52,064 nt of DNA from a virus, in IMG/VR virus record IMGVR_UViG_3300025543_000039, positions 1 through 52,064 of that record; one strand, 5' to 3'. Below are positions 3,401 through 45,040 of the stretch, piece after piece. The position numbers were made by a program, and so were the translations under genes. Position 1 is the stretch's first letter. Each line of letters starts with the position of its first letter. The notes below the pieces were generated by a model. That model searched no databases and was not told the origin of the DNA. It saw nothing but the letters and a program-made list of their open reading frames with translations.

Positions 3401-3409
3401 GGAACAATT

Positions 3410-3718: not shown

Positions 3719-3728
3719 GGAGCACTAA

Positions 3729-5252: not shown

Positions 5253-5261
5253 GGAGCAGTT

Positions 5262-5672
5262 ATGATTTTAGATTTCCTAAATATTGGTTCTAAGATAATT
5301 GACAAGATTTGGCCTGATAAAGACGAGGCTGATAAAGCTAAGTTACGCCTTCTTGAAATGCAACAGTCTGGCGAGTTTAAACAGATAGAAGCCGATATTA
5401 AAGAGCAGGAAGAGTTATCTAAACGTCATGCAGCAGATATGGCGAGCGATAGCTGGTTGTCTAAAAACATACGCCCAATGACATTAATGGCTATCTTGTC
5501 TGGATACTTTGTGTTTGCAATGATGTCGGCCTTCGGGTATGACACGAACCAGAACTACGTAGAGCTACTTGGGCAGTGGGGCATTATCATTATGTCGTTC
5601 TACTTTGGTGGTAGAAGTATTGAGAAAGTATTCAACATGATTGAAACCCGCAAATCAAAGGAAGGCAAATGA
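5262..5672 (+). CDS. Holin of the three-transmembrane (GTA holin-like) family
   Basis: 136 residues. The N-terminal half is charged and helical (residues 1-65), containing a K-x-x-A-D-M-A-S-D-S-W-L-S-K-N-I-R-P motif that leads into hydrophobic segments at about 70-90 and 103-120. This matches the 3TM holin family found next to lysis enzymes, with the first amphipathic helix counted as the third segment. It would permeabilise the inner membrane to release the endolysin encoded immediately downstream, whose start overlaps this stop by 4 nt. Confidence 0.8.
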   Translation: MILDFLNIGSKIIDKIWPDKDEADKAKLRLLEMQQSGEFKQIEADIKEQEELSKRHAADMASDSWLSKNIRPMTLMAILSGYFVFAMMSAFGYDTNQNYVELLGQWGIIIMSFYFGGRSIEKVFNMIETRKSKEGK

Positions 5673-6124
5673 GCCAGTTTAAACTCTCTGAACGCTCACT
5701 TAAAAACTTAGAGGGGGTTGACCCACAACTGGTAGCCGTTGTTAAACGTGCTATTGAACTCACCAATGTTGATTTTGGTGTCATTGAAGGCGTTAGAACC
5801 GAAGAGCGTCAGCGTGAGTTAGTTGATAAAGGCGCAAGCCAGACTATGAGGTCTAAACATATTGAGGGTCGTGCAGTAGATTTGATGGCTTATATCGGTA
5901 CTCGTGCATCTTGGGAACTTAACCTATACGACAACATAGCTGATGCTATGAAAGTGGCGGCTCAACAGTTAGGCGTTGCAATCACTTGGGGTGGTGCGTG
6001 GACTGTAAAAGATATACGCATGTGGGAAGGACCGATGCAGACAGCGATGAACACTTATATTGATATTCGTCGTGGGCAGGGTCGCAAACCATTTATTGAC
6101 GGTCCTCATTTTGAGGTAGCATAA
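5669..6124 (+). CDS. Endolysin, M15-type D-Ala/L-Ala-D-Glu peptidase
   Basis: 151 residues. The zinc-binding signature S-K-H-x-x-G-x-A-V-D is present (His64, Asp71), and the C-terminal G-P-H-F-E (His147) supplies the third metal ligand, as in VanY/M15 peptidases. The earlier G-V-R-T-x-E-x-Q motif (41-49) is also typical of the fold. It would cut peptide crosslinks in peptidoglycan. It has no signal peptide, so it depends on the upstream holin. It overlaps both neighbours by 4 nt or less, making a tight lysis cassette. Confidence 0.9.
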   Translation: MSQFKLSERSLKNLEGVDPQLVAVVKRAIELTNVDFGVIEGVRTEERQRELVDKGASQTMRSKHIEGRAVDLMAYIGTRASWELNLYDNIADAMKVAAQQLGVAITWGGAWTVKDIRMWEGPMQTAMNTYIDIRRGQGRKPFIDGPHFEVA

Positions 6125-8229: not shown

Positions 8230-8230
8230 T

Positions 8231-9367
8231 ATGGCTAAACTTATCACGAGTAAAGCACCTAACTTACCTATGGCACCGGGGGGGTACTCCCCTCAGTTTC
8301 AAGAACAATTAAACAACGCCTTACGTCTATATTTTTCTCAAGTAGATAATATCAACCAATCTGTAACTAAAGCCGTAAATGCGGGTGGTGTATCTGCTGA
8401 TTTTGATTACATAGACTTTAACCAATTAGCTTTATTTGACGATCAGACAGCAAGGCTCGGTTGGAATAGTGTAGACGAAACGCTAAACCTCGGTATGGCT
8501 TATGGTGTGACTCAGCAAATTGGTCAGGAAACATATGCAAGGGTAGAGAATAATACAGGTGTAACGATACCTAACGGTACAGTCGTGGGGTTTGCCGGTG
8601 TAGGTGTAGGTGGTACGTTACGAGTAGCACCCTATTTAGCGAACGGTACTCAGTCAAGCCTGTATATTTTAGGGGTTATGACGCATGACTTACCTGACTC
8701 ACAAGATAGAGGCTATTGCACGGTTTGGGGTTCAGTTAGAACATTAGATACTAGTGCGTTTAGCGTAGGAGATATTCTTTATGCTTCACCCGCAACTACG
8801 GGTGGGTTGACAAACGTTAAGCCAACAGCCCCTAATAATGTGGTTGTAGTAGCTGCGTGTTTGGTGTCTGACGCTATAGATGGCGTGATATTTGTTAGAC
8901 CTACAATTACGCAAATGAAATATTACGGTGTGTTTGCCAAGACAGCAGACACGACTCCTGCGGTAATTAACACGGCATACCCGATTACTTTTGATTTGAC
9001 ACGCATTACCAACGGTATCGTTATAGGCGGTACAACATCTCGGTTAATAGTTCCTGAATCTGGTCTATATCAATTTAACGCGACCTTACAATTCATTAGC
9101 AATTCAGCAGTGGATAAAAATATTTGGGTTTGGTATCGTGCGAATGGTACAGACATACCATCATCGGCTCGCATTTTGACTGTTAGCACGAATAATGCTT
9201 ACACACCGATTGCGCTGAATGAGGCGGTGTCTTTAGCTGCGGGTGGATATGTTGAGTTAATGTATGCGGCAGACAGTACAAATGTGACAATAGATGCAGT
9301 TCCAGCCACAGCTTTTGCTCCTGCTTCACCTGCCGTTGTGATAGAAGTAACACAAGTTCAATTATAG
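8231..9367 (+). CDS. Virion fibre protein with C-terminal C1q-like domain
   Basis: 378 residues from the ATG at 8231, one base after the previous stop; an in-frame ATG 30 bases earlier would overlap the upstream gene and has no better ribosome site. The N-terminus (about 1-60) contains a helical F-x-x-Q-L-N-N-A-L-R-L-Y-F segment, likely an anchoring helix. A central beta domain follows with G-V-T-I-P-N-G-T-V-V. The last 140 residues (from Y-Y-G-V-F-A-K) have the strand order of C1q/TNF-like trimers, including G-L-Y-Q-F-N-A-T. Probably a head or tail surface fibre. Confidence 0.7.
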   Translation: MAKLITSKAPNLPMAPGGYSPQFQEQLNNALRLYFSQVDNINQSVTKAVNAGGVSADFDYIDFNQLALFDDQTARLGWNSVDETLNLGMAYGVTQQIGQETYARVENNTGVTIPNGTVVGFAGVGVGGTLRVAPYLANGTQSSLYILGVMTHDLPDSQDRGYCTVWGSVRTLDTSAFSVGDILYASPATTGGLTNVKPTAPNNVVVVAACLVSDAIDGVIFVRPTITQMKYYGVFAKTADTTPAVINTAYPITFDLTRITNGIVIGGTTSRLIVPESGLYQFNATLQFISNSAVDKNIWVWYRANGTDIPSSARILTVSTNNAYTPIALNEAVSLAAGGYVELMYAADSTNVTIDAVPATAFAPASPAVVIEVTQVQL

Positions 9368-9383
9368 ACGTATAGGACACCAA

Positions 9384-9425
9384 ATGTTATTATTAAGCAC
9401 CCCCTTGACAAAGAGATTATTATGA
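9384..9425 (+). CDS. Possible 13-residue leader peptide
   Basis: ATG at 9384 behind a weak GGACACC site opens a 13-codon frame (Leu-rich, ending K-R-L-L) whose TGA overlaps the ATG of the next gene as ATGA. That coupling is the only reason to list it. It may raise translation of the 525-residue gene. Chance occurrence cannot be excluded. Confidence 0.25.
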   Translation: MLLLSTPLTKRLL

Positions 9426-10999
9426 GCATTAAACAAGCTGCCAACTATATTCGCTCTCAAGGGCGGAATAACGATACACAGTTAATGCATGTTACACCAA
9501 ATGAGTTAGGTGGTTTGCAAGCACTAGCTATGGCTCACGGTGGGTCTTTGACTTTAAACCCTACCACAGGGCTACCAGAGGCTGACTTTCTGGAAGCCAT
9601 CTTACCGGCAATTATTGGTTTTGGTATTACCGCTGCAACAGGTGGTGCTGCTGCACCTTGGATGGTTGGGGCTGGCGTTGGTGCTGGAACAACTGCAATG
9701 ACAGGCAGCCTCGAGAAAGGTTTGATGGCTGGTCTAGGTGCTTTTGGTGGAGCTGGGTTAGGTGGTTCTGTGTTGAGTGCAGGGGCTCCTGTTGCCGCAG
9801 GTACAAACGCAATGGCTGCTACTGGGGCTAGTTCAACGGCAGAGGCAGCAACTCTTTTACCACCTTCTGGCATGTCTAGCGCTGCTGGGATAGGGGGAAC
9901 TGGTGCGGGGTCTTCAATTATGCCCACGGCGGGGCAGTCATTCTCTGCGGGGATGGGTGAGATCGCCAACGCTCCCGGTCAGTTCTTGTCTAGCAATTTA
10001 GGAAACATTGGTAAGTCTTTAGCACCTGCTTTGTTAGAAACCCCAGACCAATCGTCCCCACAAGAAACAGAATCATATATTCAGCCATACGACTATTCCC
10101 AGACAATGAACCCTAATTTTGGTATGCCGGGGCAGTCTTATTACTCAGACCAAACGTTTACACCTAGACCTCAACAAAGCGCGTCTAGCTTTACTGGGTT
10201 TAATAATGGTGGTATTGCATCATTGGCAGAAGGCGGTGAGCCTAAGTACACAAACCCAACAAAGCCAATTAATCCTGCGGTAACTGAGTACAACAATAAA
10301 CTCATGCAGCAAGCTAATTATGAGTACAACCAATCTCCACAGCTAGGTGCGTTTCAATCAGCATTACCCGGAGCTGGTGCATATAACGAGCAAGCAGGTA
10401 TAGCCTACCAAGCCAACCGTGCAGCATTGGCAGAGAAGTTAAAAGATGCAGGACCAAATCAGTTTGGCTATCAGTACAACCCAGAAACAGGTATGGTTGA
10501 CAAGGTTGCTGTTCCAGTTGTAGAAGATACCAGCCGAAATAATGGTATTAGTTATGGCAACATGTATGACCCGTGGTCAATGGGCAATCAGAATGATGGC
10601 GGTGGCAGTGATGGTGGCGGTGGCGGTGCGGGTGCAGGACCCGGGGCAGGTGAGGGTGGGTCTGGAGCTAGTCATGCGATGGGTGGTCAAGTAAGAAAAA
10701 TGGCTGATGGCGGTATTACTAGTCTTGGCGGTTACTCAGATGGTGGTCAGCTCTTAAGAGGTCCCGGTGATGGGGTAAGCGATGATATCCCCGCATCTAT
10801 TGAAGGGCGTCAGCCAGCTCGGTTAGCTGATGGTGAGTTCGTATTTCCAGCACGTATTGTGTCAGAAATAGGTAACGGCAGTACAGATGCAGGTGCTAAA
10901 CGTTTATACGCGATGATGGATGCAATTGAAAACCGTCGTAAGAAATCAATGAATGACATTGCAGCAGATACCCAAGCTTACAGAGAATTAAAGGTATGA
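9422..10999 (+). CDS. Likely internal virion / ejection protein with Gly/Ala-rich hydrophobic region
   Basis: 525 residues. Residues about 55-130 are a long Gly/Ala-rich, membrane-compatible stretch; the middle is low-complexity Pro/Gln/Tyr; a poly-Gly tract lies near 393-420. Two G-G-I-x-x-L motifs (about 261-267 and 429-434, the latter within M-A-D-G-G-I-T) resemble one in the protein at 13316. The C-terminus has a conserved-looking L-A-D-G-E-F-V-F-P-A block, then a charged helix. The properties fit DNA-ejection proteins stored in the capsid. No enzyme motif was seen. Confidence 0.6.
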   Translation: MSIKQAANYIRSQGRNNDTQLMHVTPNELGGLQALAMAHGGSLTLNPTTGLPEADFLEAILPAIIGFGITAATGGAAAPWMVGAGVGAGTTAMTGSLEKGLMAGLGAFGGAGLGGSVLSAGAPVAAGTNAMAATGASSTAEAATLLPPSGMSSAAGIGGTGAGSSIMPTAGQSFSAGMGEIANAPGQFLSSNLGNIGKSLAPALLETPDQSSPQETESYIQPYDYSQTMNPNFGMPGQSYYSDQTFTPRPQQSASSFTGFNNGGIASLAEGGEPKYTNPTKPINPAVTEYNNKLMQQANYEYNQSPQLGAFQSALPGAGAYNEQAGIAYQANRAALAEKLKDAGPNQFGYQYNPETGMVDKVAVPVVEDTSRNNGISYGNMYDPWSMGNQNDGGGSDGGGGGAGAGPGAGEGGSGASHAMGGQVRKMADGGITSLGGYSDGGQLLRGPGDGVSDDIPASIEGRQPARLADGEFVFPARIVSEIGNGSTDAGAKRLYAMMDAIENRRKKSMNDIAADTQAYRELKV

Positions 11000-24782: not shown

Positions 24783-25013
24783 TTATTTAAGTTTCTTTAG
24801 AAACTCTGTGATTGCGGAAGCATATTGCGCTTGGGGTAAGTGCTGCCCAACAAACCAGTTGTATATCGTCATGCGACTAACACCAAACTGCGATGAAATA
24901 TACGTTACTGGAATGTTGCGGGCTATGCACTTCCTACCAAGAGCTACGCCAAGATGACTACGATCTGCCTTCTTGTTCCGTTCAACAAGCATTGAACTGT
25001 ATCCATAGCTCAT
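24783..25013 (-). CDS. Small helix-turn-helix DNA-binding protein (Cro/CI-like)
   Basis: 76 residues. The region 24-60 fits an HTH_3-type domain: an R-K-C-I-A-R-N-I-P helix, then I-S-S-Q-F-G-V-S-R-M-T-I-Y-N-W as turn and recognition helix. The first 23 residues are charged. The size fits a Cro-type repressor. It lies between the SSB-like gene and the primase. One of several candidates for reading the repeated operator sites at 37-45 kb; that link is not shown by the sequence. Confidence 0.75.
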   Translation of the reverse strand: MSYGYSSMLVERNKKADRSHLGVALGRKCIARNIPVTYISSQFGVSRMTIYNWFVGQHLPQAQYASAITEFLKKLK

Positions 25014-31682: not shown

Positions 31683-31972
31683 GTTAGTAGTTCCTTTATC
31701 GTGTTACCTAACAATGTTAGGTTTTCCTCGTTTATTATTAAAGCCACACCCCCTGCTGTTTTTATAGCCGCTAACTCTCTGTCTTGTAGGGCTGTAGTTT
31801 TACCTTTACCCGCCTTACATTCAATCGCAAGAAACCTACCTTTAGCGCAACATATGATGTCGGGTATACCTGCTCTACCCATGCCATTCGCTACTGGGAA
31901 AAAGTAATACACACCAACTTCTTTTAGTAGCGCGGTGCACTTAGCTTTTACTTTGGATTCAGGGGTAGCCAT
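31679..31972 (-). CDS. VRR-NUC domain nuclease
   Basis: 97 residues, a complete stand-alone VRR-NUC: E-S-K-V-K-A-K, then G-R-A-G-I-P-D-I-I-C-C (catalytic Asp), F-L-A-I-E-C-K-A-G (Glu and Lys) and a final helix. The family cuts branched DNA such as Holliday junctions and is common beside phage polymerases. A promoter lies just upstream (31979-32007), so this gene starts the polymerase operon. Confidence 0.88.
   Translation of the reverse strand: MATPESKVKAKCTALLKEVGVYYFFPVANGMGRAGIPDIICCAKGRFLAIECKAGKGKTTALQDRELAAIKTAGGVALIINEENLTLLGNTIKELLT
31708..31720. promoter_or_regulatory. In-gene palindrome CTAACA-A-TGTTAG
   Basis: A 13-bp perfect odd palindrome with the same arms as the intergenic operators but a 1-nt centre, inside the VRR-NUC coding sequence. 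Three more occur at 36480, 39458 and 40707. Operator function is inference. Confidence 0.4.
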
Positions 31973-32195: not shown

Positions 32196-32399
32196 TCATA
32201 GAAAAAGGTCAAGCTGCTTTGGTTTGTTTGTTTCCATATGCTCTTTTAAGATATTACGCATCACAGCTTGCATTGTATTCGGGTACTGCGTACGATAATA
32301 ATTCAACACCTCTGGCTCTAACCTAATGCTAGTGCAAAACATAGCTGGTTTAACTGCCTTACCACGACCTTTACGTACTTGTTTAGTTTCAGTATTCAT
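32196..32399 (-). CDS. Small ribbon-helix-helix-like DNA-binding protein
   Basis: 67 residues from the ATG at 32399, which overlaps the upstream stop (ATGA) and has GGCGGAAAA in front. A basic N-terminus (R-K-G-R-G-K-A-V-K) leads to S-I-R-L-E-P-E-V-L-N-Y-Y-R, the strand and first helix of MetJ/Arc or BrnA-type repressors, and a second helix Q-A-V-M-R-N-I-L. Proteins of this type bind short inverted repeats, so it is a fair candidate for the CTAACA operators. No toxin gene is adjacent. Confidence 0.65.
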   Translation of the reverse strand: MNTETKQVRKGRGKAVKPAMFCTSIRLEPEVLNYYRTQYPNTMQAVMRNILKEHMETNKPKQLDLFL

Positions 32400-36387: not shown

Positions 36388-37239
36388 TTACCAGTTAAAC
36401 TTGTTAATGATGCTATCAATCTTAGTTTTCATATCACTACGCACCAAGGCATCGTCTTTAATTTCTTCTATGTCTGCACCTAACATTGTTAGTTCTAGTG
36501 CCTTACGTGCTTCTTCCAACTGTGGGTCTTTAGTAATGTTGAGGTTAGTTAACAGGGAACACATAGCCTGCGCGTTCGTAACAAACGTATCATGCCAACG
36601 TTTCTTCTCATCAGCCGACGACAATGATAGTTTCTCGCTCATAGAAGTCAGCATCGTGTGCAGATCATTCCAAGGCTTACGCATAGCATCAGTCAACCGT
36701 GCGTTGAAGTCCACCTCGTACTGCTCCCGCATCTCTGTTAAGTCTTGCTGTGGTACATCTAAGCGGAAGTCCCCAGACTCAGGCAACGGGCTAAACACTA
36801 ACTTAAACCCAAACTTCTCTCGCACTTCATTTGCGTCAGGGTAATCCTCTTCGTTATATAAGCTACCCATGTATATCTTCGATGCATGCTTGAGGTTGTC
36901 GTAGTTGTCTACTAACTTATCCGCAAGGGTATTGAAGTGAGCCGTACGCACATTCATGTTGGTCTTGTAGTCCATGAACAAACTTGTGGGTAACATACGC
37001 CCACCACGATCAGCCCAAGGTAACGTAACTCTGTTGTTATACAGTCTGCATGCCGCCGCAAAATCACTTATGTCTTTACGTAGTGACGTACCTGCAAGTA
37101 GATTCTTACGAAACGCCCCTGACTGTGCCCCTGCACCGTTGTCGTTGATCACCGATTGGGTTGCACCCTTGTCTAATTTAGCGGCTGTCCACACGCTGAT
37201 GTTTAACTCTACTAGTACTGCGCTTGATGATATGCTCAT
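36388..37239 (-). CDS. DUF3150 family protein
   Basis: 283 residues from the ATG at 37239, with AGAGAGAACATC in front; an upstream in-frame ATG at 37284 would cross the CTAACA operator. The N-terminus has L-N-I-S-V-W-T-A-A-K-L-D and N-L-L-A-G-T-S-L-R-K, typical of DUF3150, followed by long helices. The family is repeatedly found in phages and plasmids with a MoxR ATPase and a VWA protein, as here. Its job is unknown. Confidence 0.75.
   Translation of the reverse strand: MSISSSAVLVELNISVWTAAKLDKGATQSVINDNGAGAQSGAFRKNLLAGTSLRKDISDFAAACRLYNNRVTLPWADRGGRMLPTSLFMDYKTNMNVRTAHFNTLADKLVDNYDNLKHASKIYMGSLYNEEDYPDANEVREKFGFKLVFSPLPESGDFRLDVPQQDLTEMREQYEVDFNARLTDAMRKPWNDLHTMLTSMSEKLSLSSADEKKRWHDTFVTNAQAMCSLLTNLNITKDPQLEEARKALELTMLGADIEEIKDDALVRSDMKTKIDSIINKFNW
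36480..36492. promoter_or_regulatory. In-gene palindrome CTAACA-T-TGTTAG
   Basis: 13-bp site with 1-nt centre inside the DUF3150 coding sequence; same arms as the intergenic operators. Confidence 0.4.
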
Positions 37240-37276: not shown

Positions 37277-37292
37277 CCTAACAAATGTTAGG
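37277..37292. promoter_or_regulatory. Operator-like site upstream of DUF3150 gene
   Basis: CCTAACAAATGTTAGG, 37 nt before the start codon at 37239. Lies between the stop of the 59-residue gene and the DUF3150 gene. Confidence 0.7.
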
Positions 37293-37299
37293 TTTTTGT

Positions 37300-37479
37300 T
37301 TACTTTTCTATTGCTGTAAGCCAGTCGTGTACATGTTGGTATGCTGCTATCTCGTCTATAGCGTACACACCGGTATCACGTTGTCGTCGTTCGCCACCTT
37401 TTATATACACAACAGTGTGAAACTTTAGCCCTTCGCTAGTAGGCGGACTAGTACCTTGCTTGACGCTTATTACCTCCAT
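37300..37479 (-). CDS. 59-residue protein, unknown function
   Basis: Starts at 37479 by TAATG overlap with the upstream stop, with CCGGAGAATGAC in front, and ends at 37300. Reads as a small alpha/beta protein: F-H-T-V-V-Y-I-K-G-G-E-R-R-Q-R-D-T-G, then a C-terminal helix H-V-H-D-W-L-T-A-I-E-K. It fills most of the gap between 37240 and 37478. Confidence 0.7.
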   Translation of the reverse strand: MEVISVKQGTSPPTSEGLKFHTVVYIKGGERRQRDTGVYAIDEIAAYQHVHDWLTAIEK

Positions 37480-37724
37480 TAGTCATTCTCCGGTTTACCT
37501 GCTAACTTCGCCATACGATATAAATTATCGGGTAGTACTTCCATAACAAACTTTTCCTCGTCTTGTGGGTACACGTAATGCAACACCGTAGGATTGCTTT
37601 CCTCGTCTTTCGTATACTTAGTGTCGTACAGCTCTGCCTTACCTAACACTTCAGCAATTTTTATTGCGTCTGCTGAATCGACTACATATTTTTTCCAGCC
37701 TAATATAACCACGACCTTAGCCAT
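37479..37724 (-). CDS. Small acidic protein, unknown function
   Basis: 81 residues; beta-rich start (V-V-V-I-L-G-W-K-K-Y-V-V) and acidic middle. Overlaps genes on both sides. No family recognised. Confidence 0.65.
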   Translation of the reverse strand: MAKVVVILGWKKYVVDSADAIKIAEVLGKAELYDTKYTKDEESNPTVLHYVYPQDEEKFVMEVLPDNLYRMAKLAGKPEND

Positions 37725-37875
37725 TTTTTTTCTCCATTAAAGTAAGTAATTTTTCGAATGCGGCATGCCACCCTGCTTTGAATGATGTCTTGGCGGTATG
37801 TCGTAATGCTAGAGCACCGAACCCTTCACCGAACAAACGCTCGTACTCTTGTTCCCACAATTCCTTGTCTTCCAT
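37717..37875 (-). CDS. 52-residue protein, unknown function
   Basis: ATG at 37875 with GTGGAGATGT upstream; stop at 37717, overlapping the next gene by 8 nt. Helical and charged, with T-S-F-K-A-G-W-H-A-A-F-E-K, similar in pattern to the C-terminus of the protein at 32396-32605. It begins 2 nt after the VWA gene ends. Confidence 0.65.
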   Translation of the reverse strand: MEDKELWEQEYERLFGEGFGALALRHTAKTSFKAGWHAAFEKLLTLMEKKNG

Positions 37876-37877
37876 TT

Positions 37878-39062
37878 TTACATCTCCACATGAATGGTCT
37901 TACCTTGGGGGGATACCGTTTTGTTACCACCTACTATTGCCCACAGTACGGGCACGTTCTGCCACTCGTCATCTGTACCCCAGTCATCTATGTAACCATC
38001 GGTCAAGACAATCACACACTCGGGCTTGATGCCTTCGTCTTTAAGATACTTCGCAACACATCGGGGGTCTGTACCCCCACCACCACGCATATTCTGTATA
38101 TCGACTGAGTTAAGACAGCCATCTTCATACTGCTTGTGTGCTTCAACTGCACCGTCCCAGTCAATCAGGTCAATGCGATCAGGGCTTACCTCTTCTGCAA
38201 TAGCCTTAGTCTCCGTTGCGCTGGCGTTTAACTCTTCACTACCCATCGAACCTGAGGTATCTCGGGCGATAACAATATTACCTACCTTCTCACCAATCAT
38301 TGTTGGCATGTATATACCTTGTGATAAGAACCTACGATTAGGTCTACGCCATGACGACGAATCCTTGTTTGCGCATACTGATGTAACAAACTCACGTAGC
38401 TGTTCGCGCCAGTCAACCTTGGGCTCTAGTAACTCGGCTAAGTCTCTAGGTGTATTACCCGCACCACCACCGACACCTGCACCACCCATTGCACCTGATC
38501 GAATCGCTTGGTCAATCTCACGTTCGAGATTCTTCTTCTGATCATCGGTTAACTCTTGTGCACCTTCCCAATCATGCTCGTCAAACCCACCACCACCTTC
38601 ACCATCTCCATGCTCTTCACGTAACATGTCGAATACTTGCTTGGCGTTGAGTCCACGATACTTCTCGTCTATCAACCCATAGGGCTTACCATCTTTTTGT
38701 GGCATCGCAATGACTGTCTGCTTAGGGTCTAAGTCTTGTAGCTGTATGTTGATAACGTAGTCACATGCGGCATTAGCTAACTGCTTGTCTATATCCCATA
38801 GCTTCTTCCATGTAAACAAGTGACGATACGCCTTGTGCATATTCTCGTGCATAACAACAAACGCCAACTCTTTATCCTCTAGCCCATCAATAAACTCTGC
38901 ACCGTATACCTCATCACGCCCATTGGTGTACGCACTTGAAACCCCTGTACGTACTTCAGTCTTACCAATCATCATGATGCTCCCCCAAAACGCAAACTGT
39001 GGGTTACGCATTAACGCTATCTTAATCTTCTTGAGCCTACGCTCTTGTTTCTCTGTGTTCAT
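37878..39062 (-). CDS. Metallopeptidase-like / VWA protein (DUF2201 type)
   Basis: 394 residues. The N-terminal half has a zinc-peptidase motif H-E-N-M-H (72-76) in V-V-M-H-E-N-M-H-K-A-Y-R-H. A Gly-rich acidic linker (about 152-205) follows. The C-terminal VWA-like domain has a MIDAS D-T-S-G-S (268-272), G-G-G-T-D (328-332) and L-T-D-G (353-356). Such proteins pair with MoxR-type ATPases, here encoded directly upstream. They probably form a chaperone-like or remodelling complex; the target is unknown. Confidence 0.82.
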   Translation of the reverse strand: MNTEKQERRLKKIKIALMRNPQFAFWGSIMMIGKTEVRTGVSSAYTNGRDEVYGAEFIDGLEDKELAFVVMHENMHKAYRHLFTWKKLWDIDKQLANAACDYVINIQLQDLDPKQTVIAMPQKDGKPYGLIDEKYRGLNAKQVFDMLREEHGDGEGGGGFDEHDWEGAQELTDDQKKNLEREIDQAIRSGAMGGAGVGGGAGNTPRDLAELLEPKVDWREQLREFVTSVCANKDSSSWRRPNRRFLSQGIYMPTMIGEKVGNIVIARDTSGSMGSEELNASATETKAIAEEVSPDRIDLIDWDGAVEAHKQYEDGCLNSVDIQNMRGGGGTDPRCVAKYLKDEGIKPECVIVLTDGYIDDWGTDDEWQNVPVLWAIVGGNKTVSPQGKTIHVEM

Positions 39063-39070
39063 CTCGTTTT

Positions 39071-39086
39071 CCTAACATTTGTTAGA
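39071..39086. promoter_or_regulatory. Operator-like site before the VWA gene
   Basis: CCTAACATTTGTTAGA, 8 nt upstream of the start at 39062 and between the MoxR stop and the VWA start; the site itself abuts the ribosome-binding region. Confidence 0.7.
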
Positions 39087-39087
39087 T

Positions 39088-40152
39088 TTAAAGTAAGTCC
39101 TGATTTTTTGTGACCCACTCGCTGAACTTCTTGCTACTGAACGCCACTACCTGCTTGTTACTCTTAGCAATGTTGATACAAAACACCGCTTGCCACTCGG
39201 CTTCGAACCTATCTAAGTACTGCATGAACTTGTCAATGTTTTCCTTAGTGACTCGGGATATTGCACCGAACACTATGACTGCACAAGCCCCGGGATCTAC
39301 TGGTACTTGAGTAGTTGTAGGATTAGATACCATAGCTTCCCATACTGGTAACTGATCTGCGTATGTAACAAACGCTTCCAACCCTCTAGCACCTGACTCG
39401 CCAAGCGTACCTGTTAACGCGCTGATCACCACCTCGTAATCTAGCTGATCACGTTTACTAACAATGTTAGATGCTGTCTCAAGTGAACGTGGGGTAACAA
39501 ATGCTGTCTGTACTTTCTTAGGGTTAAAGATAAACGGATTGTCGCCCTGCCCACCATCTAAGTACGATGCCAATACCTGAGGGAAACGCTGTACCCATGC
39601 ACATACTTCAGGTGCTAGGTTGTTATCAATAGCCCATGACACCCAATCATCAGCGTTAGGCTTACCTACTGTTACAGGCACAATGCGGTTACGGGTATGT
39701 GCTTTGAGGTTATCACCCACACCATCACTTGCCATGTTGCCCGTCATAAATATAATTGAATCAGGGTGCACAGGCACGTCACCTAGCCGTGGGTTAGTCT
39801 TCTCTAGCAGTGGGTGCAACATATTCTTCACGGGCTCTGCACCTTTGGGGAACTCATCGAGCATGATAAGTACAGGCTTACCCGTATGCATATTGAACCT
39901 GCTGTTAGGGTAGTACTTAGTGGTCTTTGTTTCGTGATCGACCACAGGCATCGCTATGTCACCTAAGTCCATGTTGGGCACGTCTATGTACGACACCGCA
40001 TGATCAGGGAACTGCTTGGACAGCTCTTTGAGTAACGAACTCTTACCAATCCCGGGCTCACCTTGCAACATGAACCTATTTTCAGGGCACGCCGCAATTA
40101 ACTTAGCCGCTTGCTTGAGTGTCACAGTCCTACCAAAATTTAATTCAGCCAT
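39088..40152 (-). CDS. MoxR-type AAA+ ATPase
   Basis: 354 residues. Walker A G-E-P-G-I-G-K-S-S (31-39), Walker B L-I-M-L-D-E (95-100), sensor 1 I-I-F-M-T-G-N (133-139) and an arginine pair H-T-R-N-R (152-156) are all present. The order and length match MoxR-like ATPases that act with a VWA partner to remodel or load cofactors. The next gene downstream is such a VWA protein. A strong promoter and an operator-like site lie upstream. Confidence 0.88.
   Translation of the reverse strand: MAELNFGRTVTLKQAAKLIAACPENRFMLQGEPGIGKSSLLKELSKQFPDHAVSYIDVPNMDLGDIAMPVVDHETKTTKYYPNSRFNMHTGKPVLIMLDEFPKGAEPVKNMLHPLLEKTNPRLGDVPVHPDSIIFMTGNMASDGVGDNLKAHTRNRIVPVTVGKPNADDWVSWAIDNNLAPEVCAWVQRFPQVLASYLDGGQGDNPFIFNPKKVQTAFVTPRSLETASNIVSKRDQLDYEVVISALTGTLGESGARGLEAFVTYADQLPVWEAMVSNPTTTQVPVDPGACAVIVFGAISRVTKENIDKFMQYLDRFEAEWQAVFCINIAKSNKQVVAFSSKKFSEWVTKNQDLL
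39458..39470. promoter_or_regulatory. In-gene palindrome CTAACA-A-TGTTAG
   Basis: 13-bp site with 1-nt centre inside the AAA+ ATPase gene. Confidence 0.4.
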
Positions 40153-40172
40153 AATTTCCTCTCTGGGTTGTT

Positions 40173-40188
40173 CCTAACAAATGTTAGG
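40173..40188. promoter_or_regulatory. Operator-like site before the MoxR gene
   Basis: CCTAACAAATGTTAGG, 20 nt upstream of the start codon and 44 bp downstream of the -10 of the promoter at 40232-40260, so it is inside the leader of that transcript. Confidence 0.75.
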
Positions 40189-40231
40189 TTTTTACTTCGG
40201 TTTGTGTTAACTACTACTCTACTATACTTAT

Positions 40232-40260
40232 ATTGTACCACATTGTTATGTATATGTCAA
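40232..40260 (-). promoter_or_regulatory. Sigma70-type promoter (leftward) of the MoxR-VWA-DUF3150 cassette
   Basis: -35 TTGACA (40260-40255), 17-bp spacer, -10 TACAAT (40237-40232). The spacer contains CATAACAATG, the 10-mer repeated in the 43.1-43.8 kb region. The bases after the -10 (ATAAGTATAGTAGAG) are shared with the promoters at 43.1 and 43.3 kb. Confidence 0.88.
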
Positions 40261-40291
40261 GTGTGTACCATGTAACGATAGGCAAAGTTAT

Positions 40292-41188
40292 TTAAAACGC
40301 CCATGAATACCTATCCTTAATAACCTGCCCTGCGCTTACTTCCTTACACTCAAACACTTCTGCCTTGTGGTGCGCTAATATGCACTTGTCCAACGTGTTA
40401 AACGCTAACTGCTCAGTCGAACGCCATACATATGCTTCGCTACATATCATCACAGCCGCTTTGAACCGATCAGCAGGGTCATCACTTGCAATTAAGTTAA
40501 ACAGGTTCTGCATATCCTCAGGTTTACTGAACACCATACTTGGTTTGTTAACTGTTCTGCTTGTATATGTATTACCCATTTCACCGTAGGGTACTTCTTT
40601 AATTGTGAACCCAAATATTTCCTCTAACTCTTCAGTAGTAACCCTCGCACTCCCACGCAACTTTATAAACCCACTCAAGAAATTTCTAAACTCTGAATAC
40701 TTAGACCTAACAATGTTAGTTTCTTTACGCTTTATGGCATGCACAACCTGTGGTACGTGGTTAACTACTTCATACTTACTCTTCTCATCACGTTTTATAG
40801 TGATACCTTTTCTATTTACCCTATAACTACCTGTACCTAAACTTATAATCACGTCACCGTCAAAGATCTTGGCATACACACCTAACACGTCGTATATAAA
40901 CCCAGCCGCTGATACGCTTGTCCAGTACGGGCATAAGTACACCTCACCGTTAGGTCTGAATGTTATGCTTGCCACTGGTCTACCGCTGTGGTATCCACAC
41001 TCGTAACACAATATATCCCCAGTAGTTTTATCCTTGTCGATACTAAAGTGTGGTCTGTTCCTGTGCCCCAGTGGTCTGCACTCTACTTCACGCCCACGTA
41101 TGGGTTTAGTTGTTTCGTACTTCTCTAGTGCTTGGGCATAATTACCTAAAAGATATATGCCGCTGTTGCGATATTGTCCGTAACTCAT
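40292..41188 (-). CDS. Early protein of unknown function with C-x-x-C pair
   Basis: 298 residues. The N-terminus has K-P-I-R-G-R-E-V-E-C-R-P-L-G-x-R, and residues about 60-67 read L-C-Y-E-C-G-Y-H. The middle has S-L-G-T-G-S-Y-R-V-N. The C-terminus is helical. I recognise this arrangement as common in phage early regions but know no function. Start overlaps the upstream stop by 4 nt. Confidence 0.7.
   Translation of the reverse strand: MSYGQYRNSGIYLLGNYAQALEKYETTKPIRGREVECRPLGHRNRPHFSIDKDKTTGDILCYECGYHSGRPVASITFRPNGEVYLCPYWTSVSAAGFIYDVLGVYAKIFDGDVIISLGTGSYRVNRKGITIKRDEKSKYEVVNHVPQVVHAIKRKETNIVRSKYSEFRNFLSGFIKLRGSARVTTEELEEIFGFTIKEVPYGEMGNTYTSRTVNKPSMVFSKPEDMQNLFNLIASDDPADRFKAAVMICSEAYVWRSTEQLAFNTLDKCILAHHKAEVFECKEVSAGQVIKDRYSWAF
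40707..40719. promoter_or_regulatory. In-gene palindrome CTAACA-A-TGTTAG
   Basis: 13-bp site with 1-nt centre inside the 298-residue gene. Confidence 0.4.
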
Positions 41189-41379
41189 AACTCCTCCTGT
41201 ATTTGGTTGATAACTACTCTGTAACCTAATGTTTTGATGATCTGTATTTGATATGGGCTGAATGTCTTCGTGTTAGCTAACATCGCTAAACTCTGCGCCT
41301 TATCGCATGCAGGTTCTGGGTAAACTAAGTCCTTGCCATATACCCTCTTACGTACTACTGTAATATCCATATCATTCAT
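41185..41379 (-). CDS. Small conserved protein, unknown function
   Basis: 64 residues. V-Y-G-K-D-L-V-Y-P followed by K-T-F-S-P-Y-Q-I-Q-I-I-K-T-L-G-Y is a pattern seen in many small phage proteins. Start ATG behind GAGGAGCTAACGA, which follows an operator-like site. Confidence 0.7.
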   Translation of the reverse strand: MNDMDITVVRKRVYGKDLVYPEPACDKAQSLAMLANTKTFSPYQIQIIKTLGYRVVINQIQEEL

Positions 41380-41396
41380 TCGTTAGCTCCTCGTTT

Positions 41397-41411
41397 CTAA
41401 CATTTGTTAGG
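41397..41411. promoter_or_regulatory. Operator-like site
   Basis: CTAACATTTGTTAGG, 17 nt upstream of the start codon at 41379. Confidence 0.7.
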
Positions 41412-41413
41412 TT

Positions 41414-41620
41414 TTACTTCCCTATATAACTAAAACAACCTACCCATTCTTTATAGTGGTGTTGATCTACTACCCTTAACATCTCAGGCGCACCGTTGAA
41501 TCTACGTATCACACATATTTCACCGTGTGTCAGTGAGGGTTTAGGTCTAACATCAGCCCATGTGAATGGGGTTGGTCTACTGCTTGTACGTAGTGTGCTA
41601 TCTGCTTGTGCCATGTCCAT
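41414..41620 (-). CDS. Small protein, unknown function
   Basis: 68 residues, with a beta-rich G-E-I-C-V-I-R-R-F-N-G-A-P-E-M-L-R-V-V core. ATG behind GAGGAGGAGTA; a second ATG two codons later is possible. No family recognised. Confidence 0.6.
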   Translation of the reverse strand: MDMAQADSTLRTSSRPTPFTWADVRPKPSLTHGEICVIRRFNGAPEMLRVVDQHHYKEWVGCFSYIGK

Positions 41621-41636
41621 TACTCCTCCTCGTTTC

Positions 41637-41650
41637 TAACATTTGTTAGC
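41637..41650. promoter_or_regulatory. Operator-like site
   Basis: CTAACATTTGTTAG, 16 nt upstream of the start codon at 41620. Confidence 0.7.
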
Positions 41651-41674
41651 CTAGCTCTGCTAGTCTTTTCTGGG

Positions 41675-41884
41675 TTAGGTTTTACTTATAGCGATTGATT
41701 GGTTGGCAAATGCTTTACGATCTAAATAAGATGGGCAGAACCCATACACCCCAGCGACCACACCCACAGCACTATTAACAAACTCTCGGGTGTATTTATC
41801 TGTGGGTAAAAGCGATGTAGCCACATGCCCTGCCGTTGTAGTCACATGTGTGACCCATACAAACTTTAATTTTTTCGCCTTCAT
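41675..41884 (-). CDS. Small protein, unknown function
   Basis: 69 residues, basic start then a hydrophobic-leaning centre (V-N-S-A-V-G-V-V-A-G-V-Y-G-F) that may form one membrane-associated helix. Start behind GGAGAGAGAAA. Confidence 0.55.
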   Translation of the reverse strand: MKAKKLKFVWVTHVTTTAGHVATSLLPTDKYTREFVNSAVGVVAGVYGFCPSYLDRKAFANQSIAISKT

Positions 41885-41899
41885 TTTCTCTCTCCGTTT

Positions 41900-41914
41900 C
41901 TAACATTTGTTAGG
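41900..41914. promoter_or_regulatory. Operator-like site
   Basis: CTAACATTTGTTAGG, 15 nt upstream of the start at 41884. On the - strand it is followed by the leader AAACGGAGAGAGAAA, nearly identical to those at 42334, 42533 and 43038. Confidence 0.75.
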
Positions 41915-41915
41915 T

Positions 41916-42143
41916 TTAACTAGTCCGTTTCGGGTTTAACTGTTTAAGCATCTCAAGGTCTGTGATGAACATATAATTGCTCTTGTTCATCGGTGCTATC
42001 GTGCGCTTAGCGGCTTTTTCTCGTGCTTGCAAGTCACCGCATGATAAGCATGTGCTGTAACCTAACTTGTATCGTGCTAGTGGTACATAACCACCAAAGC
42101 AACCAGTGCATAGATACCTACTGTCTTCGTTGTTAGAGTCCAT
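41916..42143 (-). CDS. Small zinc-ribbon-like protein
   Basis: 75 residues from the ATG at 42143 (AAGGG at 6-nt spacing). Two C-x-x-C pairs, C-T-G-C and C-L-S-C, spaced about 18 residues, make a likely zinc ribbon, followed by A-P-M-N-K-S-N-Y-M-F-I-T-D and L-K-Q-L-N-P-K-R. This arrangement is frequent in phages; function unknown. Overlaps the upstream gene by 11 nt. Confidence 0.7.
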   Translation of the reverse strand: MDSNNEDSRYLCTGCFGGYVPLARYKLGYSTCLSCGDLQAREKAAKRTIAPMNKSNYMFITDLEMLKQLNPKRTS

Positions 42144-42318
42144 GTTCAACCCTTATAAGATCTGCACAATGACCGATTGCATCTATGCTGTACTTTTTTG
42201 ACATGTAGTGCAATGCTTTCATTACATCAGGCTCATTGCGTAGATTTGTGTCTAAGGCAACCATCAACAACCGAATGATTATCCAGTCTTTCTTACTTAC
42301 CATTTTGTGTTTCTTCAT
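42133..42318 (-). CDS. Small helical protein, unknown function
   Basis: 61 residues, basic and helical (K-K-D-W-I-I-I-R-L-L-M-V-A-L). Start behind GGAGAGAGAAA after an operator-like site. No family recognised. Confidence 0.6.
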   Translation of the reverse strand: MKKHKMVSKKDWIIIRLLMVALDTNLRNEPDVMKALHYMSKKYSIDAIGHCADLIRVEHGL

Positions 42319-42333
42319 TTTCTCTCTCCGTTT

Positions 42334-42347
42334 CTAACATTTGTTAG
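42334..42347. promoter_or_regulatory. Operator-like site overlapping a stop codon
   Basis: CTAACATTTGTTAG, 15 nt before the start at 42318. On the - strand its last bases give the Cys codon and stop of the upstream gene, so the site is partly coding. Confidence 0.75.
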
Positions 42348-42516
42348 GTTTAACTTCACGCACGTCGTACAACTTCCAACCACTACTACCTTCTACTTCT
42401 TCAAAATCGCCCGCATCAATTACCGTAGCTACTTCCCACGGGTCTTGGTCGTCTTCCACCTCGAACTCATATTTAAGAACAGCTGACATGGTTGCGTATG
42501 CAATATATTTCTTCAT
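42334..42516 (-). CDS. Small acidic protein, unknown function
   Basis: 60 residues from the ATG at 42516 behind GGAGAGAGAAA; the longer frame would run through the operator-like site. Acidic middle (F-E-V-E-D-D-Q-D-P-W-E-V-A). The last codons and stop lie in an operator-like site. Confidence 0.65.
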   Translation of the reverse strand: MKKYIAYATMSAVLKYEFEVEDDQDPWEVATVIDAGDFEEVEGSSGWKLYDVREVKPNKC

Positions 42517-42532
42517 TTTCTCTCTCCGTTTT

Positions 42533-42546
42533 CTAACATTTGTTAG
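42533..42546. promoter_or_regulatory. Operator-like site
   Basis: CTAACATTTGTTAG, 16 nt upstream of the start at 42516. Confidence 0.75.
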
Positions 42547-42565
42547 GTTTTTAGCTTTTAGGTTT

Positions 42566-42739
42566 TTAGTGGGTATCAAAATATGTTTGGTTGATGATGC
42601 CGTGGGTCACATTGAACTCATTAAGATCAGAGCATGCGTCAAAGAACCCTAACTGGTACTGCGGGGAAGTGTCATGGGTTGTCATGTTGATCACTTCGTT
42701 GAGCCTATCGGCATAGCCCTGCCTGTATGCATCTGTCAT
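42566..42739 (-). CDS. 57-residue protein, unknown function
   Basis: ATG at 42739, just after the upstream stop, with AAGGGGAAAATAAA in front; ends at 42566. Helical start (D-A-Y-R-Q-G-Y-A-D-R-L-N-E-V-I) and a Q-L-G-F-F-D-A-C motif. It fills the gap between 42517 and 42740. Confidence 0.65.
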   Translation of the reverse strand: MTDAYRQGYADRLNEVINMTTHDTSPQYQLGFFDACSDLNEFNVTHGIINQTYFDTH

Positions 42740-42740
42740 T

Positions 42741-43022
42741 TTATTTTCCCCTTAGGAGTCCACTGCATTTAACTAGGTACGAACCGTCATCACGATACTG
42801 CACAATGGCGGGGTAAATTATGGGTAGTGGCTTATCAGTTACCACACTAGCAATCCATGTAATACCATCGGGTATCTCACACCCACCTACAGTACTCAAC
42901 ACGTCTAGGTTGTGCTTGGCAAATAATTCACGCCAATTTGGGTATAAGTTCTCAGGGTCTGCATCGTTACGGCAACCACTGACAGCCCTGCCTATTTCTG
43001 AATTAACTTCTTTTTCGTTCAC
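42741..43022 (-). CDS. Small protein with GTG start, unknown function
   Basis: 93 residues from a GTG at 43022, behind CGGAGAGAGAA. Contains W-R-E-L-F-A-K-H-N-L-D and a beta-rich C-terminus. First gene after the gene-free 43 kb region and after two tandem promoters, so likely expressed very early. Confidence 0.65.
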   Translation of the reverse strand: MNEKEVNSEIGRAVSGCRNDADPENLYPNWRELFAKHNLDVLSTVGGCEIPDGITWIASVVTDKPLPIIYPAIVQYRDDGSYLVKCSGLLRGK

Positions 43023-43037
43023 TTCTCTCTCCGTTTC

Positions 43038-43051
43038 CTAACAAATGTTAG
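43038..43051. promoter_or_regulatory. Operator-like site
   Basis: CTAACAAATGTTAG, 15 nt before the GTG start at 43022 and 48 bp downstream of the -10 at 43099. Confidence 0.75.
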
Positions 43052-43098
43052 TTTTTGTTTAACTACAGGTATGTTTTTTATTTCTCTACTATACTTAT

Positions 43099-43127
43099 AT
43101 TGTACCACATTGTTATACATATGTCAA
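43099..43127 (-). promoter_or_regulatory. Sigma70-type promoter (leftward), proximal of a tandem pair
   Basis: -35 TTGACA (43127-43122), 17-bp spacer, -10 TACAAT (43104-43099). The spacer has ATAACAATG followed by TGG, as in the 40.2 kb promoter. Confidence 0.88.
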
Positions 43128-43199
43128 GTCTAGAGCTTGAATTTGGGTGGTTTGTATTGTTATGCTTTTAATACTTGATTTGTAATGTTATGTAATTTC

Positions 43200-43213
43200 C
43201 TAACATTTGTTAG
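43200..43213. promoter_or_regulatory. Operator-like site downstream of the distal promoter
   Basis: CTAACATTTGTTAG, 49 bp beyond the -10 at 43262 and not directly before any gene. Confidence 0.7.
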
Positions 43214-43261
43214 GTTTTTGTATTGTTATGTTTTTTGTTGTTACTACTCTACTATACTTAT

Positions 43262-43290
43262 AGTATACCACAATGTTATGGGTTTGTCAA
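43262..43290 (-). promoter_or_regulatory. Sigma70-type promoter (leftward), distal of a tandem pair
   Basis: -35 TTGACA (43290-43285), 17-bp spacer, -10 TATACT (43267-43262). The spacer contains CATAACATTG then TGG. Downstream bases ATAAGTATAGTAGAG are the same as at 40.2 and 43.1 kb. Confidence 0.88.
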
Positions 43291-43704
43291 GTCCAGAGCT
43301 CGATTTGTAATGTTATGTTTTTGAGCACCGGTAATGTTATGTTTTAAGCAAAGTTGTAATGTTATGTAAATGGGGTAATGTTATGAAAAAGGGGGGTATT
43401 GTTATGTTTTTAAAAAATTACATAACAATACAAGTGCCGCATAAACAAAGGCTGAAAAGCATAACAATAGGGTATTGTTATATTGTTATAGAAAAATAGA
43501 AAGAGTGATAACTTTATAAGTTTATTTGTATTGTTATGTGATTTGCTTTTCTCTTGCATGATGCTTCTTTTGCTCTCTGGAAAAGGCATGCACTACTCCC
43601 AAAACACATAACAATATAACATTACTTATTTATCAAGGACTTACAAGAAAAAAAACATAACAATACACATAACAAAGCGAAATTACATAACATTAGGTAA
43701 AAAC

Positions 43705-43718
43705 CTAACATTTGTTAG
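43705..43718. promoter_or_regulatory. Operator-like site inside the iteron region
   Basis: CTAACATTTGTTAG, located among the TGTTATG repeats with no start codon nearby. Confidence 0.65.
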
Positions 43719-43812
43719 TTATCTGTACTACAATGTTATGTACTACAATGTTATGTTTACGCTCTCGCTCTCGCTTGCACCTGTTCGCTTACGCTTGCGC
43801 TTGCGCTCAGGA

Positions 43813-43956
43813 ACTATCACTACAAAACTATCACAAGAACTATCACCCTATAACTATCATAATAAATACAACCACAAAAAATATAACTATCACTACATAA
43901 CTATCACTACATAACTATCACTACAACTACAAAAAACTATCATTATGGAACTGTCA
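43813..43956 (+). repeat. ACTATCA iteron array
   Basis: Eight exact ACTATCA copies start at 43813, 43827, 43839, 43853, 43886, 43900, 43914 and 43936, with an ACTGTCA variant at 43950. Five of the gaps are exactly 14 bp (six counting the variant). All face the same way. Confidence 0.85.
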
Positions 43957-43997
43957 CGAAAAGTAAATTTTTGTAAACAAAAAATAAAAATAAAAAG

Positions 43998-44039
43998 AAA
44001 AGCGAAAAGCGAAAAGCGAAAAGCGAAAAGCGAAAAGCG
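43998..44039 (+). repeat. Six tandem AAAAGCG heptamers
   Basis: An exact 42-bp tandem array directly after an A-rich stretch and directly before the terminator at 44051-44070. Confidence 0.9.
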
Positions 44040-44049
44040 GAGGCTAAAA

Positions 44050-44070
44050 TAAACCCGCCGTAGCGGGTTT
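44050..44070 (-). terminator. Hairpin terminator for the two genes at 44.1-44.8 kb
   Basis: A perfect 8-bp stem AAACCCGC/GCGGGTTT around a 4-nt loop (44070-44051), followed on the - strand by ATTTTAG. It lies 8 nt after the stop of the 66-residue gene. The T-run is short, so strength is moderate; it would stop leftward transcription from entering the iteron region. Confidence 0.65.
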
Positions 44071-44078
44071 AAAAGGGT

Positions 44079-44279
44079 TTAAGGGTTGATAAGTTTATTT
44101 TGAACTTCTAAAGCCTCGGACATATTGTGGCATGAGTGACGACTGGGGAAAACTTGGTATCGTGATGCAAGGTTATTTAAATCGACGTCGGTTAATATTG
44201 AACCCTTAACGTGCAGAACCACATTGCTACCGAACTGTTTAACGTCTTTTAACATTACTGATAAGGTTGAGTAAGGCAT
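44079..44279 (-). CDS. Small protein, unknown function
   Basis: 66 residues with AAAGGAATATT before the ATG. N-terminal beta/alpha part with L-H-V-K-G-S-I-L-T-D-V-D-L-N-N-L-A. Separated from the next gene by a GC-rich 43-nt spacer carrying a GCGGG/CCCGC hairpin (44300-44312). Confidence 0.6.
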   Translation of the reverse strand: MPYSTLSVMLKDVKQFGSNVVLHVKGSILTDVDLNNLASRYQVFPSRHSCHNMSEALEVQNKLINP

Positions 44280-44322
44280 AATATTCCTTTGGGTTTGGAG
44301 CGGGTTTCCCCGCCCCTTTGGG

Positions 44323-44826
44323 TTAGTTTTTCAGCATAGAGGCATCACCACCCATGCCTTCGTATGCTTCAATTAGTAAAGCCTTAACTTTGTTTGATTT
44401 CTCAGCAGAGCCATCTAACTGGTCATGAGCCAAGATACGGTTTAAGATTGTAGCCAAGTCCTTGAAGGTTAACGAGTCAACATCAAGGGCAGTTTTAGCA
44501 CGATTCCCCGCAGTTATATAGCCGCTGGCTTCCTTCACTCTCTGCCAGTAAACGTCAACCGTACCCTTCTCAAACCCCGCCTCAGCCATTGACTTAGCGA
44601 ATAGAGCACGTTCAGCCTTAACGCCTACCTTATCCTTACCCTTCAAATCAAACCAAGCCACCACACGTTCGCCAACCGCATCTACCTGATCAAACATGTT
44701 GCACATTGACCGAGCATAAGCCAGAACCAAATCGCCAGTTTTAGCGACACCGTTAACCAGACCTTCCCGAGACATAGCCAAATCTTCTGAGGCATCGTCG
44801 AACTGTTGAGTAGATGTTACTTGCAT
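44323..44826 (-). CDS. Early protein of unknown function, possible DNA-transaction role
   Basis: 167 residues, helical, start behind AAGAGAGAAAATATC. Contains F-D-L-K-G-K-D-K-V and G-T-V-D-V-Y-W-Q-R-V-K-E-A-S-G-Y. No family function known to me. Its gene is first in the leftward early region, adjacent to the iteron region and flanked by operator-like sites, a usual place for an initiator or regulator, but that is positional inference only. Confidence 0.65.
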   Translation of the reverse strand: MQVTSTQQFDDASEDLAMSREGLVNGVAKTGDLVLAYARSMCNMFDQVDAVGERVVAWFDLKGKDKVGVKAERALFAKSMAEAGFEKGTVDVYWQRVKEASGYITAGNRAKTALDVDSLTFKDLATILNRILAHDQLDGSAEKSNKVKALLIEAYEGMGGDASMLKN

Positions 44827-44850
44827 GATATTTTCTCTCTTAAGTGAAAC

Positions 44851-44864
44851 CTAACAAATGTTAG
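44851..44864. promoter_or_regulatory. Operator-like site
   Basis: CTAACAAATGTTAG, 24 nt upstream of the start at 44826 and 44 bp after the -10 at 44908. Confidence 0.75.
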
Positions 44865-44907
44865 GTATTGGATTTAACTACTATTTAACTTCTTGTCTTA
44901 CACCTAT

Positions 44908-44913
44908 ATTATA
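44908..44913 (-). promoter_or_regulatory. Promoter -10 element without a clear -35 (leftward)
   Basis: TATAAT preceded by TGTGG and followed by ATAGGTGTAAGA, resembling the three strong promoters, but the hexamer 17 bp upstream is not TTGACA-like. Operator-like sites lie on both sides, so activation by a protein is plausible. Confidence 0.55.
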
Positions 44914-44959
44914 CCACAAAATAGGGTTAAAACGACATACAATGTAAACAATAAATAAA

Positions 44960-44973
44960 CTAACAATTGTTAG
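44960..44973. promoter_or_regulatory. Operator-like site, fully palindromic version
   Basis: CTAACAATTGTTAG, the only one of the set with a symmetric AATT centre. It lies about 47 bp upstream of the -10 at 44908. Confidence 0.65.
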
Positions 44974-44978
44974 ATTCT

Positions 44979-45040
44979 AAAAAAAATTTTCGAAAAGCCT
45001 GGCAAAACGCTTTAAAGCAAAAAAAATTTTCGAAAAGCCT
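44979..45040 (+). repeat. 22-bp direct repeat before the terminase genes
   Basis: An A8-TTTTCGAAAA-GCCT unit occurs at 44979-45000 and 45019-45040, exactly 40 bp apart, each with the palindrome TTTTCGAAAA. The rest of the 433-bp gap (44865-45297) has C-rich tracts near 45051-45064 and 45146-45160 and no gene. The position just before the small terminase gene fits a packaging site, but also a regulatory site. Confidence 0.7.

Follow-up and report, generated by a model that had tools for sequence, protein, structure and literature searches.

A dispersed array of palindromic sites in the early region of an uncultivated phage, and a candidate ribbon-helix-helix protein that may bind it

The window analyzed here is a 52,064-nt stretch of viral DNA (IMG/VR virus record IMGVR_UViG_3300025543_000039, positions 1-52,064). 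Between positions 37278 and 44973 it holds 13 mismatch-free copies of the palindrome CTAACA-NN-TGTTAG. Judged from its sequence features, this set is a real and strongly selected array of DNA operators, and it is probably a new form of dispersed transcription control. We lean, by somewhat more than an even chance, toward a mechanism in which a small ribbon-helix-helix (RHH) protein of the phage shuts early transcription off through these dispersed, two-fold-symmetric sites, much as the stoperators of other phages do.

The array is far from a chance occurrence. Dinucleotide shuffles of the window gave a mean of 0.01 copies, and none of 100 shuffles reached 13. A first-pass annotation made from the letters alone had listed 13 sites and asked whether they would be equally frequent in shuffled sequence; all 13 were found, within 1 nt of its positions, and their frequency is not that of chance. 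Copies with 1-3 mismatches are at background in the window (45 found, with the 13 exact ones counted in, versus 36 expected), and thus the motif occurs exactly or not at all. The 2-nt spacer consists solely of A or T bases. Early genes contain another four exact copies, in which the spacer is 1 nt (CTAACA-N-TGTTAG), bringing the array to 17 members; it thus covers the early leftward unit between 31.7 and 45.0 kb. Searches with 1- and 2-nt spacers revealed no copy in the replication genes (21.8-31.3 kb; polymerase, helicase, primase-helicase) or in the late genes, in agreement with the absence noted earlier from 21.7-31 kb and the late region. The sites are as follows, without strand; L047, L048 and L051 are related contigs.

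37278..37291: palindrome CTAACA-AA-TGTTAG, intergenic; exact, 38 nt before the start at 37239
39072..39085: palindrome between the MoxR-like ATPase and VWA genes; exact, 9 nt before the start
40174..40187: palindrome in the MoxR-like ATPase gene's promoter leader, ~45 bp past the -10
41397..41410: palindrome, intergenic; exact
41636..41649: palindrome, intergenic; exact
41900..41913: palindrome, intergenic; exact
42334..42347: palindrome whose TAG is the stop codon of the upstream open reading frame; exact
42533..42546: palindrome, intergenic; exact
43038..43051: palindrome in a promoter leader, ~48 bp downstream of the -10
43200..43213: palindrome in a promoter leader within a non-coding block, ~49 bp downstream of the -10
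43705..43718: palindrome in the non-coding block; exact
44851..44864: palindrome ~44 bp past an extended -10, in the first early gene's leader
44960..44973: palindrome CTAACA-AT-TGTTAG in the gap where the early and terminase units diverge; exact
31708..31720: 1-nt-spacer copy in a 97-aa Hjc-like nuclease gene; exact
36480..36492: 1-nt-spacer copy in a 283-aa gene; at the same place in L047 and L048
39458..39470: 1-nt-spacer copy in the MoxR-like ATPase gene; shared with L047, L048 and L051
40707..40719: 1-nt-spacer copy in a 298-aa gene; shared with L047

Two other repeat sets are found in the same neighborhood. The non-coding block (43000-43960) contains many CATAACAWTAC repeats and tandem copies of GTGATAGTT, and could be a replication origin or a second operator set. 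Beside the outermost palindrome, at 44980-45040, AGGCTTTTCGAAAATTTTTTTT is directly repeated twice.

The position of the sites relative to promoters bears on how they might act. Promoters were identified as consensus matches (TTGACA-N17-TACAAT or TATACT, extended -10), three of which are found in the window.

40232..40260, minus strand: early promoter TTGACA-N17-TACAAT
43099..43127, minus strand: early promoter TTGACA-N17-TACAAT with an extended -10
43262..43290, minus strand: early promoter TTGACA-N17-TATACT

A further extended -10 lies near 44915. In all four cases (~43290, ~43127, ~40260 and near 44915) a palindrome starts 44-49 bp downstream of the -10. For comparison, we collected relatives by searches with the MoxR-like ATPase and the 283-aa early protein, which yielded ~150 IMG/VR contig pieces, 116 after removal of duplicates. 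At 107 consensus promoters, the relatives' sites are most frequent 40-80 bp beyond the -10; none lies over the -35/-10, nor anywhere between ~60 bp before the -10 and 20 bp after it. Because the sites cluster downstream and avoid the promoter itself, interference with elongation is favored over promoter occlusion. A leftward start codon lies 9-38 nt downstream of ten of the window's sites (15-17 nt for six), a placement described before and now measured. This proximity mostly reflects the siting of the palindromes in intergenic gaps and promoter leaders. As a separate observation, a degenerate half operator, ATAACAWTGTGG, lies between the -35 and -10 of the three promoters listed above and recurs in promoters of the relatives.

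Most of the 116 non-redundant related contigs carry a dispersed palindrome of their own through the early region, and within one genome the copies are mostly of one type. The commonest type is CTAACA-N-TGTTAG, with a maximum of 24 TAACA-N-TGTTA copies (L048). Others are CTAACA-NN-TGTTAG, ATAACA-N-TGTTAT, GTAACA-NN-TGTTAC, CTGACA-NN-TGTCAG and CCTACA-NNN-TGTAGG, and the palindromes of more distant relatives are GTACGTCA-N-TGACGTAC (L170), TAGCCA-N-TGGCTA (L171), TTATGGG-NN-CCCATAA (L180) and TAGTCACGTGACTA (L187). The tree implies at least 10 changes of palindrome class. The sites nonetheless recur at homologous places, such as before the ATPase, VWA and 283-aa genes, and in relatives of 62-67 kb nearly all are confined to one early block of ~10-15 kb. 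The stoperator-like regulon proposed in the first-pass annotation is thus strongly supported as a dispersed array of DNA sites, one that is restricted to the early operon and whose kind is conserved in relatives. Palindromes are also seen after the last gene of a unit, directly before an apparent terminator (L006 at 6254 and 13481, L170 at 9267, L180 at 14511). One relative, L012, has two arrays: at 3321-9445, six copies of a second palindrome, GAGTTTAGG-N5-CCTAAACTC, lie beside four copies of the CCTACA type.

An important question is whether the palindromes act as DNA or as RNA. An RNA hairpin (5-6 bp stem, 3-5 nt loop) could be read beside the ribosome-binding site, as had been suggested, or could be a boxB-like antitermination element in the nascent transcript. 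The 15-17 nt distance to start codons at six of the 13 sites is in keeping with this idea, as are the probable transcription of all sites (44960 perhaps excepted) and the ability of isolated sites to fold, at -1.8 to -7.8 kcal/mol. However, symmetry extends into the central bases. The innermost pair is A..T in 472 of 483 one-nt sites and 153 of 165 two-nt sites, though a hairpin could not pair the innermost bases of the one-nt sites. The unrelated palindromes of distant relatives are likewise symmetric up to the center, with spacers of 0-2 nt in several of them and none at all in L187. The spelling of the arms leads to the same conclusion. Mismatched outer pairs are A..G (67) or C..T (42) and rarely T..G plus G..T (4), with C..A plus A..C at 14; therefore it is half-site identity that is kept, not pairing, and the covariation check proposed for the arms comes out against an RNA. 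The U-G wobble is no commoner than its mirror, C-A, and a search for a wobble excess in the flanking pairs found none. The single spacer base of the 1-nt sites is A or T, and strand bias is small (343 vs 258).

Further, many copies lie inside genes. About 46% of the relatives' 1-nt sites are intragenic, and 253 copies were counted in coding sequence versus 5.7 expected (maximum 10) under synonymous permutation within genes, a ~40-fold excess in which the copies are partly shared by related phages and so are not independent events. Of 58 loci, 50 use a single spacer length, a uniformity to be expected if a protein measures distance. The hairpin at 41397 is absent from the best fold once 51 nt of context is included, and an Rfam search of the sites gave no match. 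On these grounds, the sequence data favor a DNA operator, and we regard the RNA hairpin as improbable.

The two spacer lengths differ in where they lie. In genomes with mixed spacers, the 1-nt copies are intragenic in 24 of 31 cases and the 2-nt copies lie outside genes in 57 of 64 (p = 1.7e-10). The window and L047 share 1-nt copies at coding places that match those of L048, whose array is all 1-nt. The simplest reading of these patterns is that the lineage of the window has recently exchanged 1-nt for 2-nt spacers, with the coding copies lagging behind. On the coding strand, only one reading frame through the 2-nt form is free of stop codons, compared with two through the 1-nt form.

Which protein might recognize the sites? 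A plausible best candidate, as judged by its family and genomic position, is a small protein encoded within the array region.

32196..32399, minus strand: BrnA-like RHH protein, 67 aa, candidate binder (family matches, predicted structure)

This RHH-like family comprises 65 loci, and in almost every near relative the gene lies in the promoter-distal part of the array. Its predicted layout is a basic arm, a strand and two helices. Of 24 records tested, 19 encode the protein; the five that lack it are four distant relatives and one incomplete fragment (G063). Matches to Pfam BrnA_antitoxin were found for 21 of 50 members at E up to 1 (best 7.8e-08) and to PHROG 4692 for 32 of 50 (best 2.3e-08), while the window's member alone matches weakly (0.009). 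The AlphaFold2 (AF2) model has a core pLDDT of 91-96, with helices at residues 29-38 and 43-58 following an extended stretch, the pair of helices that an RHH protein should have. Foldseek with the monomer model returned nothing significant, a monomer of an obligate dimer being a poor query, and a sequence search of the PDB gave a weak match only (2q2k, E 0.45). The likeness to BrnA antitoxins stops at the protein itself. No BrnT toxin was found in the 16 records searched and the RHH-like gene sits in the early operon; a BrnTA toxin-antitoxin module was therefore rejected.

One residue of the candidate tracks the operator. Cys22, on the predicted contact strand, is present in 9 of 13 two-nt genomes versus 2 of 39 one-nt genomes (p = 9e-6, in a test that ignores ancestry), and residue 22 is the top association with spacer class among the 61 columns scanned. 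This residue is the best predictor of spacer length, albeit with weak phylogenetic support. Several results weigh against the RHH-like protein as the binder. An independent-pair test of Cys22 yielded only six pairs, too few, with ~1.7 in favor and 0 against. Whole-protein RHH distance, with MoxR distance controlled, lends no support to an association with palindrome type (partial Mantel, partial r -0.22). L071 and L080 encode the protein and have almost no sites. Another early protein, g285, has a best column nearly as good (p = 1.3e-5). Lastly, no RHH of the BrnA-like family was detectable in L184, which has a CTAAC-N4-GTTAG array, or in distant relatives with other palindromes; another protein must therefore serve there. 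We note that the proteins of L071 and L080 are nearly identical to that of L084, such that the missing array presents itself as a natural loss.

The last two of these points also speak for a different phage protein, e.g., an early protein not yet recognized as a DNA binder, as the reader of the operators. We hold this to be unlikely, though less so than the other alternatives. Set against it, the RHH-like protein is the sole recognized DNA-binding protein in nearly all array-bearing near relatives, and it is encoded in the array region. The other regulator that we considered does not alter the picture.

24783..25013, minus strand: conserved HTH_3 (Cro-like) protein, disfavored as binder (recognition helix comparison)

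This protein occupies one conserved place in nearly all relatives, and its recognition helix is almost invariant. Because the helix stays the same across CTAACA, CTGACA and CCTACA arrays, the HTH_3 protein fits less well than the RHH-like one and is not favored as the binder; it is likely a separate conserved regulator.

Two other kinds of binder were weighed. An A/T-centered palindrome is typical of bacterial regulators, and the sites could bind a host protein, either recruited by the phage or regulating it. However, the palindrome type has changed repeatedly on the phage tree, with whole arrays changing together, and confinement to the early region is more in keeping with control by the phage; we give the host-protein explanation very little credence. 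Alternatively, the sites could be loading or nucleation points for a spreading, DNA-organizing protein in the style of KorB, Noc or ParB, for silencing or genome organization. Plasmid RK2 offers the precedent, its KorB being a ParB-family clamp that silences over long range from operators scattered both close to promoters and at a distance (PMC11790492), and the sites here, within and between genes roughly 0.5-1 kb apart, would suit such a role. The resemblance is one of dispersal only. No protein with a ParB_N domain was found in 16 records, which led us to reject a ParB/KorB-type binder, and the sites are denser in leaders and gaps than in genes (0.80 vs 0.21 per kb). Accumulation of a spreading protein at these sites is thus highly improbable.

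Returning to the RHH protein, we propose the following course of events. The protein would be produced near the promoter-distal end of the early unit. One dimer would bind each half-site (CTAACA/TGTTAG), and a dimer of dimers would occupy the pair. As it accumulated, the protein would fill the sites in promoter leaders, intergenic gaps and genes, where it would stop the elongating RNA polymerase. Early transcription would then be shut off by negative feedback from a stoperator-like set of operators.

These phages have no close cultivated counterpart. Among cultivated phages, identity to the MoxR-like protein is at most ~28% and no close DNA match exists; a search of bacterial genomes gave no relative of this protein. 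The terminase is nearest to those of DSL-LC04 and the pelagiphages HTVC023P and HTVC027P, and 50 kb each of DSL-LC04, HTVC023P and 023Pt_psg01 contained no comparable array. Given that no tyrosine integrase was found in 19 records, no ParB_N domain in 16 and no MoxR relative in bacterial genomes, this water-borne phage is likely virulent, though many of the records may be incomplete. On a broader and more tentative view, which we put forward as possible but doubtful, an uncultivated, apparently virulent phage group would use genome-specific arrays and a tiny RHH repressor to end early transcription. The code would have switched in concert, repeatedly, perhaps through cross-repression in co-infection, amounting to a superinfection immunity of sorts. 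The natural variation in the group (1-, 2- and 3-nt spacers, several arms, a changing contact residue) constitutes a test set for joint specificity change in a repressor and its 10-20 sites. Further, the sites retained in coding sequence offer a direct measure of selection at the DNA level.

Two known systems of phage repeats invite comparison. The SAS/ESAS elements of Cluster K mycobacteriophages are 13-bp repeats near the start codons of non-structural genes, some with upstream inverted repeats; SAS have no symmetry and are found at a distance of 3-7 bp from the start codon (PMC3203893). The palindromes resemble them in position only, and are also found inside genes and before terminators. 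The likeness to the stoperators of Cluster A mycobacteriophages (the L5 clade) is closer. There, 20-30 sites of ~13 bp are spread genome-wide in short intergenic spaces; the motif varies between phages, tracks the repressor, and is thought to stop elongation (PMC6550527, PMC9283540). Both systems thus have many short sites in transcribed DNA, mostly off promoters, and a code that differs between phages. However, the sites of the L5 clade lack symmetry, have an orientation, and serve temperate phages whose repressor binds them as a monomer with two domains (PMC6550527, PMC9283540), whereas the window's site is a perfect palindrome without orientation. Also unlike the L5 set, the array is limited to the early region, is often intragenic in relatives, and places no site inside the 107 early promoters examined. 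Nor was a tyrosine integrase found in 19 records of this phage group (serine integrases were not searched for). Being symmetric, outside promoters, and with no sign of lysogeny, the array is not a member of the stoperator system as defined. Most of what is known about stoperators comes from temperate actinobacteriophages; a palindromic, RHH-linked counterpart in phages showing no sign of lysogeny, if true, would mean that dispersed control of elongation is a more general phage strategy.

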